From a virus: a DNA stretch of 30,236 nucleotides. The notes under the pieces are model-generated. The model was not told the origin of the DNA. It saw only the letters and a list, made by a program, of their open reading frames with translations, and searched no databases. The stretch's first letter is position 1. Every line of letters begins with the position of its first letter. The stretch is from positions 1 to 30,236 of IMG/VR virus record IMGVR_UViG_3300025133_000439. One strand, 5' to 3'. The position numbers and the translations under genes were made by a program. Of this stretch, positions 3,518-19,479 are shown in pieces.

Positions 3518-6500
3518 TTATCCTAATAATTTCCAATTCTTTAAAGCTTGTTTTGTTGAAAAGCCCCATTGCTCATCGTAATGTAATCTTGCCATATATG
3601 GCCGATTTAAATGAATCTTGTCCTTCTCCGGGTTAATCCCCCAGCATTTAATATCAATCATCTCTGAATTGATGTCGAGAGTCTTGACAATATAATAAAA
3701 TCTGCCCTTCTGAGTAGTTTTTATAATGATCTCGCGAGGAATAAACCAAGCAACCATTAAATCGCTATCAAATTCAGAAATTGGCTTCACGCAATGAAAG
3801 TCAAGACGTTGTTTGATTCTATCTGTGATTACAAGATTAAAGGGATAAACGCCGTTCAGATTTATTTTATTTTCAATTACTTCGTCGCGAGTAAAATCTT
3901 CCGCATCTTTAAATTCTTCAACATTCTCATTGAGTTTCTTTCTACTCTTCGGTCGATTGTCTGCAACAGCGAGCCAAAAGTGTCTAAGGTTTACGAAGCG
4001 CTCGTCAACAAGAGCATTTAACGCTTCCGCTCTGACCAGTACATCTAACGCTTTTTTATTAAGCTTAGAATACGCAATCTCTTCGCTAAAGAGAAATTCT
4101 TCAACAGTGTTAAAAGGTCTATTTGATATGATTTGTTCAATTGCTTTTTCTCCTAATCCTTTGATGGACGTCAAGGGCTGAATGAGGGTTTTTCCATCTT
4201 CAGAAATCTCCCAAACGGCTCCTGATTTGTTTATATGTATTGGTTCGATTTTATAACCAAATTGTTTTGTAATATTTATTGTTCTTTCTTTTTTACTCTC
4301 GGGTTCTTTGTCAAGGAAACTTGCAATCCATTCTGGTTCGTAATAATTTAAAAGCCAAGCGCACTGAAAAGAAATAATAGAATAGGAAATAGCATGAGAC
4401 TTGTTAAAACCATAGCCGCTGAAATACTCAAACCTTTGCCATATCTTTTCTGCCTCTTTGACCGATATTCCCTTAAGTTCACAACCTTTGACGAATTTTC
4501 TACGAATTGTTTCCTTTTTTCCATTCCTTTTGTTGCCCTTTTTAGTTAGAAGCTTGCGAAGAGAATTGCCCTCGTCCAAGCTGATGTCTTTTCCAAGCTT
4601 ATGAGCCAACAGAGCAATCTGCTCCTGAAATATTAAAAAGCCATAGGTTTCTTTTGTAACTTCTTTAATGATTTCATGGCCATAGCGAATATTGCTTGGA
4701 TTGGTTCGTGCTTCCATATAAAGATTGTGAACATTCGCGCTCAAAGCGGCTGGTCGGTAAATACTTGTAACTGCTGCAATATCAATAATACTTTTTGGCT
4801 TCACTCTCTTACAAAAACTTTGAGCGCCCTTTTCTGTAAACTGAAATATACCAGCCCATTTCCCCTTCTGAAAAATGTTTTTATAAACCTTCTGGTCGTT
4901 CAAGTCTATTTTATCTGGGTGTAAATTTTCATTATAAAACTTTTGAATGTCTTCGAAAGACGGGTTTACATTATTATGATGTCGTTTTAGTATGTGATAG
5001 ATCGCCCCTTCAATCATTTTAAGCGTGGAAAGTCCAAGAATATCAAACTTGATAAATCCCATCGGCTCAAGTTGTCTCACATGTTGACCTTCTGACCAAG
5101 GAGTCTGAGTCACGCCGCCGCTATTAATTAAAGGCATTCGCTTGTCAAGCTCTTCTCCAATGACAACTCCACCCGCATGACGAGAAACCGAACGAACTTC
5201 GCCTACGAGCGCTTCAACATGCGTTTTGATGTTTGGATACTTATTCAAAAACTTTTTTAAGCTGTGGGAATGATCCATAACTTCTTCAAAAGTTGGAGCA
5301 TAAACTCCCGCTTTGATTCCCTTGAGCTTTTTAACTATCGGAGTAGCCTCTTGAATCATTTTAGACGTGACCAAATTTGCCTCAGTGAAAGGAATATCAT
5401 AAAGCTTAGAAATATCTTTGATAAGCGAGCGAAGTTGAAGTTTATTAAAGTTAGAAATTGGAACAACTGTGTTTGCTCCCCATTCATCAATGAGCATTTC
5501 TTTGAGCTTCATTGGGTCGGAAACATCGTAATCGATGTCCGGGTAGTCTGTAGCGTCTTTCCGCAGAAATCGAGAGAAAAGAAGGTTGTATTTGATAGGA
5601 TCTACCTGTGTTATACCCAAAGCATAAGCCACCAAACTTCCTGCGGCTGATCCTCTGGCTGCGCCGGTCAATTGTGATTGGGATGCGCGGTCTGAAATGG
5701 CCTTCATTGTTAAAAAATATTCACTGAAACCTCTCTCGCTAATAGTATAAAGTTCTTCTTTTACTCTATTAATATATTCTTTGTCGTCTTTCAATCCTCG
5801 ATTTCGCAGTCCATCAACGCAAGACGCGATAAGCGCATCATCAGCGGTGAGACCTTCCGGTACAACAAAATCTGGAAACTTTACCGTACAATCCGGCATA
5901 AACGAATCGATTCTTTCATGGGCGATTTGATGAGTTTTTTCAATGCTCTCTCGAATCAGATCATCATCATATGAAGCGCCAAGTTTATCTGAATAATATT
6001 TATAGGATTCCCACATCTCGTCGCCATTCTTTGGATAAGCTTCGTAACCAACTTCTTCAACATCTGCGGGAAGTTCAGTAGGAAGCCACTCAGGAAATTT
6101 GCCTTTCCCAAGGAATCCCAATCTTTTATATAGTTCTCGGTCCTTCCAAGAATCTTTTGTTGGGTAATGGCTATCTGCTGTTGAAATCAAAGAAAGGCCG
6201 TATTCGTTGCTAACTTGAATAATATATTTGTTAAGCTCGTGTTGTTCTACGATTCCATTCCATTGAAGCTCTCCATACCAACGATCTCCAAAAACTGAAA
6301 CCATTTTTTCTGTCGATTCTCGCATAGCATCTAAAACAGCGTCGGGGCCACTCTCTCTATTTTCCCAATAATTACCAGCATATATGCCTCCGAGACAAGC
6401 GCTTGCGGCGATTACCCCTTCACTGTGCTTCTCCAACATTTTGTAATCCATTCTTGGAAAGCGATAGAAATTATCGGCCTGATATGACTTAGAGACTAAA

Positions 6501-6940
6501 GAAAAGATATTGTTAAGGCCCGTTTGGTTCTGCGCCAGCAAAATAAGATGACGCCTACGATTAAGAATGTTTTTAGTCTGGCTTTTTGTGCTCTCGTCTT
6601 CTATTGTTGTCCCGGCTTTAGAGCTGTCGATCTTTCTTTTCTTCTTCTTGTCTTGTTTGGCAATCTCAAGCTCTTCTTTCCATTTGTTAATACTCGGAAG
6701 AAAATACGCCTCGACTCCAAAAATAGGTTTAAAGTTCTTCCCCTCTTGTTGCATTCTTTGGGCATGTTGAACCTGATGGACGAAGCCATTCATATTCCCA
6801 TGATCAGTTAAAGCAAGAGAATCATTGCCGTTTTCGAAGGCATAGTCCATATGTTCGGATGGGAGGCCCAAACCGTCAAATGGCGAACCAGTTCCGCTAT
6901 GTCCGTGAAGTCCTACAAATGGTACGCTACTCTTCTTCAT
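3518..6940 (-). CDS. dnaE: DNA polymerase III alpha subunit-like replicase (family C, DnaE type)
   Basis: Family C polymerase of 1140 aa, about the length of bacterial DnaE. The N-terminal PHP domain keeps its metal ligands: HGHS (12-15), TDHG (45-48), GVEAY (Glu77), AC (Cys182) and ADSHY (255-259), so it may be an active proofreading 3'-5' exonuclease as in other PHP-intact DnaE proteins. The palm has ARGSAAGSLVAYALGI (428-443), the catalytic pair in YPDIDYD (Asp468, Asp470) and KFDILGL (Asp633). Later come SGYGFNKSHAISY of the fingers, an HhH (IKGLGEKAIEQI) and an OB-like C-terminal region. The ATG at 6940 has AAAGGA upstream and overlaps the previous gene by 14 bases. It is likely the main phage replicase. 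Confidence 0.95.
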   Translation of the reverse strand: MKKSSVPFVGLHGHSGTGSPFDGLGLPSEHMDYAFENGNDSLALTDHGNMNGFVHQVQHAQRMQQEGKNFKPIFGVEAYFLPSINKWKEELEIAKQDKKKKRKIDSSKAGTTIEDESTKSQTKNILNRRRHLILLAQNQTGLNNIFSLVSKSYQADNFYRFPRMDYKMLEKHSEGVIAASACLGGIYAGNYWENRESGPDAVLDAMRESTEKMVSVFGDRWYGELQWNGIVEQHELNKYIIQVSNEYGLSLISTADSHYPTKDSWKDRELYKRLGFLGKGKFPEWLPTELPADVEEVGYEAYPKNGDEMWESYKYYSDKLGASYDDDLIRESIEKTHQIAHERIDSFMPDCTVKFPDFVVPEGLTADDALIASCVDGLRNRGLKDDKEYINRVKEELYTISERGFSEYFLTMKAISDRASQSQLTGAARGSAAGSLVAYALGITQVDPIKYNLLFSRFLRKDATDYPDIDYDVSDPMKLKEMLIDEWGANTVVPISNFNKLQLRSLIKDISKLYDIPFTEANLVTSKMIQEATPIVKKLKGIKAGVYAPTFEEVMDHSHSLKKFLNKYPNIKTHVEALVGEVRSVSRHAGGVVIGEELDKRMPLINSGGVTQTPWSEGQHVRQLEPMGFIKFDILGLSTLKMIEGAIYHILKRHHNNVNPSFEDIQKFYNENLHPDKIDLNDQKVYKNIFQKGKWAGIFQFTEKGAQSFCKRVKPKSIIDIAAVTSIYRPAALSANVHNLYMEARTNPSNIRYGHEIIKEVTKETYGFLIFQEQIALLAHKLGKDISLDEGNSLRKLLTKKGNKRNGKKETIRRKFVKGCELKGISVKEAEKIWQRFEYFSGYGFNKSHAISYSIISFQCAWLLNYYEPEWIASFLDKEPESKKERTINITKQFGYKIEPIHINKSGAVWEISEDGKTLIQPLTSIKGLGEKAIEQIISNRPFNTVEEFLFSEEIAYSKLNKKALDVLVRAEALNALVDERFVNLRHFWLAVADNRPKSRKKLNENVEEFKDAEDFTRDEVIENKINLNGVYPFNLVITDRIKQRLDFHCVKPISEFDSDLMVAWFIPREIIIKTTQKGRFYYIVKTLDINSEMIDIKCWGINPEKDKIHLNRPYMARLHYDEQWGFSTKQALKNWKLLG

Positions 6941-14737: not shown

Positions 14738-15853
14738 TTAATCTCCTTCTGTTCCATAAAAATCAACTGCAGAGCCTGTTCTTTCATCGAATTTGGTAAT
14801 AATTTCCTCATCCATGATTTGAAGGACTCTGTTCCTAAACTTACTATCTTCTAACTTGTTGAGCCAGTGAGCCGATTGAAACTTCTCACTTGTCTCGTCT
14901 TCATAGATTAACTCATACCAAGCGCCCGAACGCTTTAAGCTATCTGAACTTTGAATTGCATCAAACCAGCTTTCCTCGTCTTGAATGCCAATCTCATCAC
15001 CCCAAAGAATTTTGAACTGGCATTGGCGGCCTTGCGAACCAAAGCGAGACTTTTCAAGCTTTATTTTTACTGTGTTGCCAATTCGATAATCTTTATCGTC
15101 ATAGACAAAAGATGCCTTTGCTTTTGGTCGCGTGAGCCAAATGCGTAATGAATACGAATAGATAAGGGTTTTTCCGCCCGGAGTCATATAAGGCGTTGTC
15201 ATCGCCTCAGAAGGCGACCGTGTAATATTTGCCTTTAATTGATTAAGGATGAGCAAGGTTGACTTGGCATTCGCAATCGAAACCAAAAGCTTTGACATCC
15301 CTTTAGAAAGGATTCTGGCCTTTACTGCCATTGTTGACTGAGGGTTGAAGTCTCCTTCCATATCAGATATAGAGGGCGTTAGTGCCAAACTGTCCCAGAC
15401 AAACAACATTCTATTTTCATTTGACTTAAGAAGTTCCTCAATTGTTTCTAAAACAAATTCAACGCTTGTCGCTTGGATGTATAAAATATTGCTCGCGTTG
15501 CACCCTGTTCGCTCAAGAAACGAGTTATCCAGAGCAGATTCCGAATCAAAGTAGACTACATCAATCCCTTTTTTCTGAGCATTGGCTGCGATTTGCGCTG
15601 CCATATATGATTTTCCGCTGGATTCTAACCCAGCAATTTCTGTAATCTTTCCTACTGGAATACCCGCAAGCTTTCCACGGCAAATCATACTATCCAACCA
15701 GCGAGAACCAGTTGAAATCCAATCAGTTACATTTGTTGGGTTGTTTTCATCGTTTAAGTCGTGAGCGACTTTCATTCCAGCTTTTTTATTTATAAGCTGT
15801 CTCATTTGATCTATGCTGAGTTTACCAGCTTTTGTTTCTTTTCTTCGCGCCAT
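14738..15853 (-). CDS. uvsX: RecA/UvsX-type recombinase
   Basis: Strand-exchange ATPase of 371 aa, close to T4 UvsX (about 390). The ATG at 15853 (MARRKETKAG) with AAGGAGAAC is chosen over an upstream frame that overlaps the previous gene. Key parts are ISTGSRWLDSMICRGKLAGIP, Walker A GLESSGKS (75-82), the YFDSESALDN catalytic-Glu region, Walker B MLFVWDSLA (Asp153), LLILNQLKANI (motif with the Gln sensor) and TPGGKTLIYSYSLRIWL as in RecA loop 2. It would promote recombination-dependent replication with the gp32-like SSB encoded two genes upstream. Confidence 0.93.
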   Translation of the reverse strand: MARRKETKAGKLSIDQMRQLINKKAGMKVAHDLNDENNPTNVTDWISTGSRWLDSMICRGKLAGIPVGKITEIAGLESSGKSYMAAQIAANAQKKGIDVVYFDSESALDNSFLERTGCNASNILYIQATSVEFVLETIEELLKSNENRMLFVWDSLALTPSISDMEGDFNPQSTMAVKARILSKGMSKLLVSIANAKSTLLILNQLKANITRSPSEAMTTPYMTPGGKTLIYSYSLRIWLTRPKAKASFVYDDKDYRIGNTVKIKLEKSRFGSQGRQCQFKILWGDEIGIQDEESWFDAIQSSDSLKRSGAWYELIYEDETSEKFQSAHWLNKLEDSKFRNRVLQIMDEEIITKFDERTGSAVDFYGTEGD

Positions 15854-15864
15854 TAGCGTTCTCC

Positions 15865-16158
15865 TTATTTTGAAATCTTGAAAGCGTGGAAGCAACTTCG
15901 GAAGCCTTTTCTGTCCATTTTAATGACAACATTTTCTCCGTAGTCTCGCACTTCTAAAATATAATTTTTACTTCTTGAGATTAAGTTTGTTATGTCGCTG
16001 TTGTCAGAACAAAACAGGACATACCCATCTGATAGATCTTTTTTGTGTGCGTTTATGGCGGTTTCTCTATCTGGGCCGCCCCCTTTTCCTTTGAATCTTT
16101 CGGAAAGGCTTTTGATTTTTGCATCAAAGTCCGAGTCAGTTTTTTTATAAAGTTTCAT
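15865..16158 (-). CDS. Hypothetical protein, 97 aa
   Basis: A small basic soluble protein of unknown family. The ATG at 16158 has AAGGAAAATA. It opens KLYKKTDSDFDAKIKSLSERF, then has a glycine patch (KGKGGGPDRE), HKKDLSDGYVLFCSD and a C-terminal beta-rich half ending in FHAFKISK. It sits between the second structured RNA element and uvsX, whose start follows its stop by 11 bases. Genes in this position in T4-like replication clusters are often accessory recombination factors, which is only a hint. Confidence 0.68.
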   Translation of the reverse strand: MKLYKKTDSDFDAKIKSLSERFKGKGGGPDRETAINAHKKDLSDGYVLFCSDNSDITNLISRSKNYILEVRDYGENVVIKMDRKGFRSCFHAFKISK

Positions 16159-16664: not shown

Positions 16665-17399
16665 TTAGCCCAAAAGCTCGCTGAAAGCCTTGTCTACTGT
16701 ATTTTCTTGCGGGGCAGCTTCAGAAACTTCTTCTGAATCATTGTCGCTTTCCAGATAAGCAGAAAGGATATCTTGAACTTCGGTGGCTGTCTTTTTTGCA
16801 TTCTCGAAAAGATCCTCAAACTCAGGGACACCTTCCATCAATTCAACCATTCGGGCCGAATCTTTATGAAGAGGTGATGACTTACGTCGAGGGGTAATTT
16901 TCGTCTCAGGGAATTGAGAACCGGCGGGTTTACCATAGGTAATAACCAAATCAGTTCCGCTTTCAGGATCGGTGATGTCACCGTATTCTGGATTAAGAAC
17001 AAGACTCAGAAGGGTTTCGTAGGCTCGTTTGCCAAAACCCCAAACTTTTACGCCCTCTTCTTCTTCTCCGCGAACAAGAACAGGAGCGAAAAAGCGCTGA
17101 CGAGCGCCAAGCTTTTTGGCCATTCGTTTGGACTCTTCCGTGCCCTCTTTCCAAAGCTGACGGACATAACTATCCAAAGGACAGTCTTCCCCGAAATTTC
17201 GCTTCGGACTCAGGAAGCCCGGATTGTCGCCCACATTATAATGGAACCAGTAATCGCGGAAAGGATCTCCATTAGCTGGAGCTACAATACGAACTGTTTG
17301 ATCTCCATCTTGAGGACGCCAAAACTTATTTGAGCCTCCGTTATTACCATTCTTGAGAGCGGTTTGACGCGCCTTCATTTTTTCCATATCAATTGCCAT
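16665..17399 (-). CDS. Single-stranded DNA-binding protein, T4 gp32-like
   Basis: A 244-aa SSB. The N-terminus is basic (MEKMKARQTALKNG); a core with the gp32-type pattern FWRPQDGDQTVRIVAP and YWFHYNV follows. CPLDSYVRQLW sits where T4 gp32 has its zinc-binding segment, but only one Cys is seen, so zinc binding seems lost. The C-terminus is an acidic, disordered tail (ESDNDSEEVSEAAPQE) ending in the helix DKAFSELLG, as expected for partner recruitment. AAAGGAG precedes ATG 17399. Its neighbours are the tubulin-like gene upstream and structured RNA downstream. It protects ssDNA and loads UvsX and helicase. Confidence 0.88.
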   Translation of the reverse strand: MAIDMEKMKARQTALKNGNNGGSNKFWRPQDGDQTVRIVAPANGDPFRDYWFHYNVGDNPGFLSPKRNFGEDCPLDSYVRQLWKEGTEESKRMAKKLGARQRFFAPVLVRGEEEEGVKVWGFGKRAYETLLSLVLNPEYGDITDPESGTDLVITYGKPAGSQFPETKITPRRKSSPLHKDSARMVELMEGVPEFEDLFENAKKTATEVQDILSAYLESDNDSEEVSEAAPQENTVDKAFSELLG

Positions 17400-17429: not shown

Positions 17430-17449
17430 CCCTGACAAATCTCTCAGGG
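17430..17449 (-). promoter_or_regulatory. Hairpin in the gp32 leader overlapping the upstream stop codon
   Basis: The transcript can form CCCTGA / TCAGGG with an 8-base loop; the 5' arm contains the TGA stop of the tubulin-like gene. It begins about 50 bases upstream of the gp32 ATG. T4 gp32 represses its own translation by binding a structured leader at a comparable place, so a translational operator is possible. This is inference. Confidence 0.45.
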
Positions 17450-18289
17450 CACAAGTTTTTGTATTAATGAACTGTTAGCTTCACAGTACACATAAATTTG
17501 ATCATAATCTGTCGGAAAGACGGAATATGTAATCTTCATTTTATCATGTTCTACTGATTTTTTAACTTGTTCTTTAATTTTTTCAATCAACGTAAAGTCT
17601 TCTTCAAGTGTTTTACGAGGTACTGCATAATAATACCTTTTTTCTCTTGGAATGTCAAGCTTAAAAAAGTATTTTTCTTCATCATCGTCAAAATTGCAAA
17701 AGCCGATTGAACTCATACGAGCTGTTTTGATACGACCAGTAAAGGTTGAAAAAACAGGCAAGCTGTGTTCAAAAACGTTAATCATGTGATAATTTGAAAC
17801 AATCATTTGATTTATACTTTCCCAATATTTCAAAATAGGAACAGGTCCAATTATACCAGAAATTAATTCATTGTCAAGTAAAATAATACGCTCAAAAAGC
17901 GCAGAACGTGCAAACTCCTGTAACACTCCGAAAAGTAAATTGTTTTGTTGATGTTGGATGAGTCCCAATTCGTCAGGATTGGGCACAACATACATTAAAG
18001 TGATCTTTGTTTTGTTTTTAATTTTCTCAAGAATTCTAAGAGAAGCCCCTGAAACAAGGCCACAACTTGTAATAAAAAGCGTTTCTGGTTCGACGCCCTG
18101 AAGAAACTTGTCAAGGGTCTTTGGAATGTTTTCTTCGTAGGCTTCAGGAGAATCTTGAACTTTAAGGCCAAGAGTTGTTTTTGTTTTTCTAAGACCGGCA
18201 TCGATCTTAAGAACATTATATTCTGAATATTGTTTGAAGCATTCGGCGATATTACAGCCAGCTTGTCCTAAACCAATAACGGTTTGCAT
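17444..18289 (-). CDS. Divergent tubulin/FtsZ-fold protein, 281 aa
   Basis: The N-terminus VIGLGQAGCNIAECF (4-18) followed by YNVLKIDAG matches the first nucleotide loop of FtsZ/CetZ/tubulin (GxGQAGxxI, then strand with D-A). Residues 73-87 (ITSCGLVSGASLRIL) sit where the GGGTGTG tubulin signature belongs but keep only part of the glycines. LLDNELIS (137-144) resembles the FtsZ NDxL nucleotide-base segment. The T7-loop acids that complete the GTPase site at polymer interfaces are not obvious. At 281 aa it is shorter than FtsZ or PhuZ (about 315). GAGGAAGAA precedes the ATG; it lies 8 bases after polA. It could be a filament-forming or regulatory tubulin homologue. Confidence 0.72.
   Translation of the reverse strand: MQTVIGLGQAGCNIAECFKQYSEYNVLKIDAGLRKTKTTLGLKVQDSPEAYEENIPKTLDKFLQGVEPETLFITSCGLVSGASLRILEKIKNKTKITLMYVVPNPDELGLIQHQQNNLLFGVLQEFARSALFERIILLDNELISGIIGPVPILKYWESINQMIVSNYHMINVFEHSLPVFSTFTGRIKTARMSSIGFCNFDDDEEKYFFKLDIPREKRYYYAVPRKTLEEDFTLIEKIKEQVKKSVEHDKMKITYSVFPTDYDQIYVYCEANSSLIQKLVP
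17850..17877 (-). promoter_or_regulatory. Perfect-consensus promoter inside the tubulin-like gene, upstream of gp32
   Basis: On the minus strand TTGACA (17872-17877) and TATAAT (17850-17855) are separated by 16 bases, with a TGG just before the -10 (extended -10 type). It would start a transcript about 445 bases before the gp32 ATG. It lies within a coding sequence, so chance is possible, but both hexamers are exact. Confidence 0.55.
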
Positions 18290-18297
18290 TTCTTCCT

Positions 18298-19479
18298 CTA
18301 TTTAATATTTAATTTTTGCATATCGTGCCAATTCTTACCGGCACTGCAATTTACTTTGAATTTGCCAAATCTTGTATTACAAAAAAGTTCTTTGATATCA
18401 TTTGTAATCAGTTGGTCATCTTCCGAAAAGTCAATCATAATTGAATCATGATTACAAAATTTAATAAAACTCTTTCGTCCCTCAAGAAGCTTCCAAACCT
18501 TATACATCTGTTCGAAAACAAGATCTGCCGCAGTTGATTGAACAATATAATTAACAGCGTGATCCTCGTCGCAATCTATTTTCCTATTATATACCGTCTC
18601 AACCAAATTATCCTTAAAATGGAGATTTTTAATCTTATCTCGGTTGTAAATCTCTGAGAAGCGGGTAGATTCGCTCTTGGGGTTGTAAAGCCAAGCAAAG
18701 ATCAATCTTTTGGCATATTCGCGATCTTTTGACCTTGGAAAAGCATTTACAAGGTTCCAATGATGGAGATCTTCTTCGGGTTGTTCTTTTCCAAGGAGAG
18801 CCAAGGCTACTCGTAATTCACAGGCGTTGAAGTCTATTTCAAATAGCCAATCGTTTGTTGGCTTTAGTGCTCCTCGATATTTCTTTGCCAAGGTCATTAT
18901 TGGAAAGGAATTCGATTTTGTGCTTAAACGCCCTGTGGCAGTTCTGAACTGGTCGTAGATTATATGTTTTTCGCATTTCTTTAAGAGATTATAAGTATTT
19001 TTGTCTTGAACTGTGATCTTGTCGTTTTCTTCGATATCCAGCTTCAAAGGTTGGAACTCGATTTCAGAAATCATCTTTTCCACATTTAAGAGAGAAGAGT
19101 AATTTGCTGGTTTGGAATGGTTGTCAAAAACGTGCTTGCAAGTGGCATCTTTAAGTTTTGCCCAGCTTTTTAGCACATGCTCTGGTATAAGGTCATAGAA
19201 ACAAACGTCTTTAAGACTAAGGCCAGATATAATAGCTGAGTTGAGGAATGCCTTTACTTTTGTTTCTATCGACTCAAGTTCCTCTTTAAGCTCTTCTGGA
19301 CATACTTCATTAAAGTTTTTACCTTGAACGAAGATTTTCGCATAATCAATGTCATAGTCTTTAAGGAAGTTCGCATATGTCCATGTTTGAGTACAAGATG
19401 GATCGACGTTTTCTTGAAATTCTGACCCCTTATAAATCATAAGGCAATCTTTCTTTTTGTCAAAAGTTTGAAAAAGCAT
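18298..19479 (-). CDS. Minimal family A DNA polymerase without exonuclease domain
   Basis: A 393-aa protein whose C-terminal half is a Pol I-type palm/fingers. Landmarks are FRTATGRLS (178-186), motif A WLFEIDFNACELR (Asp216, Glu221), motif B REYAKRLIFAWLY (Arg253, Lys257, Phe261, Tyr265), QSTAAD (314-319), motif C CNHDSIMI (His344, Asp345) and GKNW (381-384). The usual HDE is HDS. There is no 5' nuclease and no DEDD proofreading domain; the first 170 residues are unrecognised. Pol I Klenow is about 605 aa, so fingers and thumb are also short. It is first gene after a promoter; only a weak ribosome site is seen. It may serve repair, gap filling or priming beside DnaE. Confidence 0.88.
   Translation of the reverse strand: MLFQTFDKKKDCLMIYKGSEFQENVDPSCTQTWTYANFLKDYDIDYAKIFVQGKNFNEVCPEELKEELESIETKVKAFLNSAIISGLSLKDVCFYDLIPEHVLKSWAKLKDATCKHVFDNHSKPANYSSLLNVEKMISEIEFQPLKLDIEENDKITVQDKNTYNLLKKCEKHIIYDQFRTATGRLSTKSNSFPIMTLAKKYRGALKPTNDWLFEIDFNACELRVALALLGKEQPEEDLHHWNLVNAFPRSKDREYAKRLIFAWLYNPKSESTRFSEIYNRDKIKNLHFKDNLVETVYNRKIDCDEDHAVNYIVQSTAADLVFEQMYKVWKLLEGRKSFIKFCNHDSIMIDFSEDDQLITNDIKELFCNTRFGKFKVNCSAGKNWHDMQKLNIK

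Follow-up and report, generated by a model that had tools for sequence, protein, structure and literature searches.

The window analyzed here, a 30,236-nucleotide stretch of an IMG/VR virus record, encodes in the midst of its replication genes a protein that structure prediction identifies as a divergent member of the tubulin/FtsZ fold superfamily. This tubulin fold without the canonical GTPase apparatus is encoded by a core gene in conserved synteny, and the large uncultured phage group that carries it so far gives no sign of belonging to the nucleus-forming or plasmid-like lineages. The phage tubulins studied so far, PhuZ and TubZ, come, to our knowledge, from nucleus-forming or plasmid-like phages and retain the GTPase apparatus in canonical form. 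The fold assignment is well supported by the model, while the function is read from conserved residues and gene order. Our tentative proposal, to which we give almost but not quite an even chance, is that the replication operon here includes an assembly protein that binds GTP, has changed or lost its hydrolysis, and organizes phage DNA replication. If so, T4-like phages would use cytoskeletal proteins in replicating their DNA, and the family would test the abilities of the tubulin fold without T7-driven hydrolysis.

The open reading frame is a real gene and not a chance occurrence, because it has more than 500 tblastn-confirmed relatives in IMG/VR, with identities down to ~30%, along with invariant residues and a conserved gene order. 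Two alignment-based scans of IMG/VR recovered at least 547 and at least 539 confirmed relatives, and an alignment of 111 non-redundant family members (A3) is the basis of both the structural model and the residue counts, which were made position by position. An earlier note, made from the letters of the window, had placed the gene correctly at 17444-18289; the strand, absent from that note, is minus, and all of the motifs that it quoted (GLGQAGCNIAECF, YNVLKIDAG, TSCGLVSGAS, and DNELIS) are present in the frame. Its placing of the gene between DNA polymerase and gp32 genes, in a T4-like replication operon, is borne out by the Pfam DNA_pol_A and gp32 matches on either side (Table 1). The note did not register that the gene is one of a large family with shared synteny, or that some relatives have a second, canonical tubulin. 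The family-A polymerase frame ends 8 nt upstream of the start of the tubulin-fold gene, and the window also holds genes for UvsX, a 5'-3' exonuclease, a replicative helicase, a DnaE-type polymerase, and ribonucleotide reductase, as well as T4-like tail genes. Two unlike DNA polymerases are present in this one phage window, the DnaE type (3518-6940; 1140 aa) and the short family-A enzyme (393 aa), and a GH25 lysozyme with a peptidoglycan-binding domain, likely the endolysin, lies at 772-1659.

Table 1. Coordinates of the tubulin-fold gene, its operon partners and conserved segments (window positions), and of the second tubulin genes in related contigs
Feature	Position	Strand	Basis
Tubulin-fold protein, 281 aa	17444..18289	minus	ORF (ATG at 18289, stop at 17444, 281 codons); AF2 pLDDT 95.5, pTM 0.92; Foldseek to FtsZ/TubZ/tubulin
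Family-A DNA polymerase, upstream partner	18298..19479	minus	Pfam DNA_pol_A E 8.5e-14
gp32-type ssDNA-binding protein, downstream partner	16665..17399	minus	Pfam gp32 E 9.9e-14, phrog_1192
UvsX/RecA recombinase, same operon	14738..15895	minus	Pfam RecA 1.9e-37, phrog_97
T1-like glycine loop, residues 6-15 (GLGQAGCNIA)	18245..18274	minus	G6 110/111, G8 111/111; in register with T1 of E. coli FtsZ and second phage tubulin
Degenerate T4 loop, residues 74-83 (TSCGLVSGAS)	18041..18070	minus	S80 102/111; aligns with GGGTG region
Invariant H5 end, residues 124-129 (QEFARS)	17903..17920	minus	Q124, R128, S129 111/111; H5 = 110-128 in model
N140, T6 position	17870..17872	minus	111/111; aligned with FtsZ PND and DNE of second tubulin
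Core helix H7, residues 152-174	17768..17836	minus	Helix in model; N160 111/111, H168 110/111, N171 108/111
T7/H8-equivalent segment, residues 175-191	17717..17767	minus	Coil in model, no conserved acid; R191 108/111
Second canonical tubulin (A4 family)	L209 6915-8042 (G001)		
Second canonical tubulin (A4 family)	L210 6974-8101 (G008)		

Members of the family occur on uncultured phage contigs, the large ones reaching ~200 kb, and the gene is single copy in ten large contigs. The phages are presumably marine, going by the nearest relatives and general knowledge of such collections. A set of 50,697 phage records gave no useful match to the protein, and scanning GTDB genome contigs once, with a single peptide pattern, yielded no relative. 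Recoding, as a reading of in-frame stops flagged in family members, is rejected because these stops read as terminal, as checked on the open reading frames of two loci (L211 and L290).

Sequence searches give no significant placement by themselves and touch the tubulin superfamily at the N-terminus: the Pfam Tubulin match of the window protein (E 0.0013; 19.5 bits vs a cut-off of 33) spans residues 4-20 only, and the curated PF00091 cut-off is not reached, the best family member having an E of 1.9e-4. NCBIfam, PHROGs, and a single-sequence search of the PDB gave nothing informative for the window protein, and searches of PDB sequences with the profiles A2 and A3 returned weak unrelated matches only. 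The AF2 model built with the 111 aligned relatives has a pLDDT of 95.5 and a pTM of 0.92 (an earlier model from nine sequences, with a pLDDT of 52.6, was set aside) and displays the two-domain fold with the central helix H7. The earlier note had read the protein as tubulin/FtsZ-like and had named structure prediction with Foldseek beforehand as the check that could overturn this; instead, the best matches of the model across its two domains are FtsZ, TubZ, and tubulin, far ahead of plain Rossmann proteins. The 50 best PDB matches all belong to these three groups (E 8.1e-14 to ~2e-11; TMq 0.63-0.74), and the top viral model is an FtsZ-annotated phage protein (E 1.1e-12; TMq 0.79), followed by other phage tubulin-like entries and PhuZ, with the first Rossmann enzyme in that library appearing at an E of 3.9e-3. 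A few family members do weakly match TrkA_N, F420_oxidored, or ApbA in Pfam, as would be expected of a plain NAD(P)-binding Rossmann protein, or another fold, that resembles tubulin by chance. However, the composition of the top 50 matches, the late appearance of the first Rossmann enzyme, and the presence of H7 and a C-terminal domain in the model make this highly improbable, and a plain dehydrogenase is rejected on fold.

Conserved residues occur at both ends of the domain. G8, Y24, L84, Q124, R128, S129, N140, and N160 are invariant in all 111 sequences, and G6 and H168 (110 each) and N171 and R191 (108 each) are nearly so. On the nucleotide side, the T1 glycine loop is kept across the family, and alignments with E. 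coli FtsZ and with the second phage tubulin place N140 and N160 at the guanine-contacting sites of T6 and H7, which presumably correspond to N206 and N228 of tubulin (tubulin numbering). The degenerate glycine loop recognized in the earlier note, TSCGLVSGAS, aligns with the GGGTG region of FtsZ and departs from the T4 signature GGGTG[ST]G, the family having roughly [TV][SG][CS][GS]xxS[GN][AY] in its place. Equally, the absence of T7-loop acids noted for this one protein holds across the 111 sequences: the highest acidic frequency in any column of residues 174-191 is 0.61, and H8 is missing, there being no helix in the model after H7 ends at residue 174. In FtsZ, two catalytic aspartates of the T7 loop act on the GTP of the neighboring subunit, and T7 mutants impair assembly (PMC8936486), which makes canonical hydrolysis and canonical head-to-tail stacking unlikely for the tubulin-fold protein. 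The other conserved residues form a polar set (Gln-Arg-Ser, His, Asn, Arg) whose probable location is the lower face, opposite the nucleotide side and at the place of T7, the H5 end, the H7 end, and R191 being assigned to it by topology and not from coordinates. The simplest reading of this conservation is a new interface on the lower face.

These features set the protein apart from each of the known systems. It shares with FtsZ (PDB 7ojd, 4dxd, and others; Foldseek E down to 8e-14, TMq up to 0.74) the two domains joined by H7, the T1 loop, and the asparagines at T6 and in H7. In contrast to FtsZ, with which it is 11-17% identical (FtsZ and PhuZ were compared with it as single sequences only), it lacks GGGTGTG, the T7 NxDxxD, and, in the model, H8, and is a short core of 281 aa encoded in a phage replication operon. 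Bacillus TubZ (PDB 4ei7) resembles it in fold (E 3.2e-13) and in its extrachromosomal DNA context, but the window protein lacks the T4 and T7 signatures and has a different gene neighborhood, that of PolA and gp32. PhuZ of the nucleus-forming phages (phrog_4733) is likewise a phage tubulin fold and matches in the viral library (E 1.6e-6), yet the window protein has no match to phrog_4733 at an E of 1, where phiKZ PhuZ itself matches at 4.6e-118. Unlike the window protein, PhuZ keeps the catalytic T7 aspartate (PMC3678025). A single-sequence search, which could miss a distant homologue, did not find phiKZ chimallin in nine large relatives. The best viral structural match, A0A6J5RW92, an FtsZ-like GTPase of an uncultured Caudovirales phage, is 452 aa long, as against 281 aa; it was compared with the window protein by structure only and may belong to the second tubulin family described below. 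A survey of jumbo phages describes two kinds of phage tubulin (PMC7824862), and the literature covered, with subscription papers and preprints outside its scope, contains phage tubulins of the PhuZ or TubZ kinds only; for reason of that scope, the novelty of the family is provisional.

The gene order around the tubulin-fold gene is nearly invariant. Among loci with enough flank, PolA is upstream in 93 of 94 and gp32 downstream in 100 of 100, in both cases on the same strand, with median gaps of -1 nt to PolA and 53 nt to gp32. This order, together with the median PolA gap, points to coexpression and a shared role with replication, although the place of the gene in the operon may be a matter of timing only. 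Among phages outside the family, Flavobacterium phage immuto, a 484-kb uncultured phage, and three contigs (G021, G029, and G036) keep PolA and gp32 with other ORFs between them, none of which has a tubulin match. Thus, the tubulin gene marks one large phage group among related phages with other occupants of this slot. The PolA-gp32 interval appears as a slot for differing small genes in sister phages (L206 1346-2318; L208 3926-5763; L296-L298). A 429-aa protein adjoining gp32 in Microcystis phage Mel-JY01, considered as a tubulin, was rejected as SAM lyase-like. The near-invariant PolA and gp32 linkage, the loss of the canonical T4 and T7 features, and the other small proteins that sister phages hold in the same slot would also suit a non-polymerizing replisome accessory, GTP binding or structural, that reuses the tubulin fold as a scaffold, a switch, or an adaptor between polymerase and single-strand-binding protein. 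Against this, conservation at both domain ends suggests stacking, and we know of no tubulin-fold protein that acts as a non-polymerizing replisome accessory, so that we regard such a role as quite unlikely.

In the reading that we prefer, that of an assembly protein of the replication operon, the gene, which lies among those for the phage replication proteins and is presumably expressed along with them, has a product that would bind GTP or GDP. The missing contact between T7 and nucleotide, set against the invariant residues at both domain ends, suggests that it probably self-assembles via a rebuilt lower interface formed by Gln124, Arg128, Ser129, His168, Asn171, and Arg191. The polymer would hydrolyze GTP slowly, differently, or not at all, and the assembly would keep replicating phage DNA in place or position it in the cell, along with the PolA/gp32/UvsX machinery. 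All of these functional steps are our inference, as are the roles put forward in the earlier note (filament capping, inhibition of host FtsZ, and locating replication), and, since FtsZ depends on its T7 residues to assemble (PMC8936486), the protein may not polymerize at all.

Some relatives of the window phage also carry another tubulin. In G001 and G008 it lies ~43 kb from the first gene and scores above the Pfam cut-off. The family to which it belongs (A4; 33 sequences, 340-470 aa) is canonical, with invariant columns for GGGTGS, two asparagines, and the two T7 aspartates (DxxD), and its profile matches CetZ (4e-9) and FtsZ (2e-8) in the PDB, with no match in the 50,697 phage records at an E of 0.1. 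It was found in 2 of 19 contigs picked for the first gene, and the first gene in 8 of 21 picked for the second. The ~ten contigs with both fall on either side of the midpoint root of the first family's tree, a root with weak support; two contigs of 190 and 186 kb have only the first gene and one of 235 kb only the second tubulin, these contigs being possibly partial. Unlike the first protein, the second has the canonical GGGTGS and T7 DxxD and is encoded elsewhere in the genome, yet hhalign of the two families (P 0.008) gives an in-register alignment of 152 columns over T1-T4-T6-H7. This score beats 60 column shuffles but is about equaled by one short reversed decoy, and we judge it only suggestive; the common origin of the two families thus rests on the fold and not on sequence.

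The coexistence of two tubulins bears on the main rival to assembly, that the protein is a poison of host division or a filament cap, whose nucleotide-bearing upper face would dock on the T7 end of a filament protein, either host FtsZ or, in phages that have it, the second tubulin, and which, for want of a T7 of its own, would end the filament. Such a role would account for the retention of G8, N140, and N160 on the upper face with the loss of the T7 acids and H8, and the ~ten related contigs whose canonical tubulin has intact T7 aspartates offer a partner. However, a one-sided cap needs no constraint on the presumed lower face, where Q124, R128, S129, H168, N171, and R191 are strongly conserved too; most contigs picked for the first gene, including those of 190 and 186 kb, have no second tubulin that was found; and the conserved operon partners are replication genes rather than host-takeover genes. 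Capping is, on this evidence, unlikely. A fuller form of the assembly proposal, which we hold to be doubtful as a whole, is a tubulin that polymerizes by way of a new lower interface and whose GTPase mechanism is either novel or absent, the Gln-Arg-Ser/His/Asn/Arg set standing in place of the T7 aspartates. This tubulin would act in the core replication operon of a large uncultured T4-like phage group and, in some lineages, form a two-tubulin cytoskeleton with the second, canonical tubulin. In G001, the second tubulin gene is near an SbcCD-like gene, with one gene between them, and the frame just upstream of it (L209 5988-6899), which has no Pfam match, contains a DGHHRW motif reminiscent of ParB-like domains.
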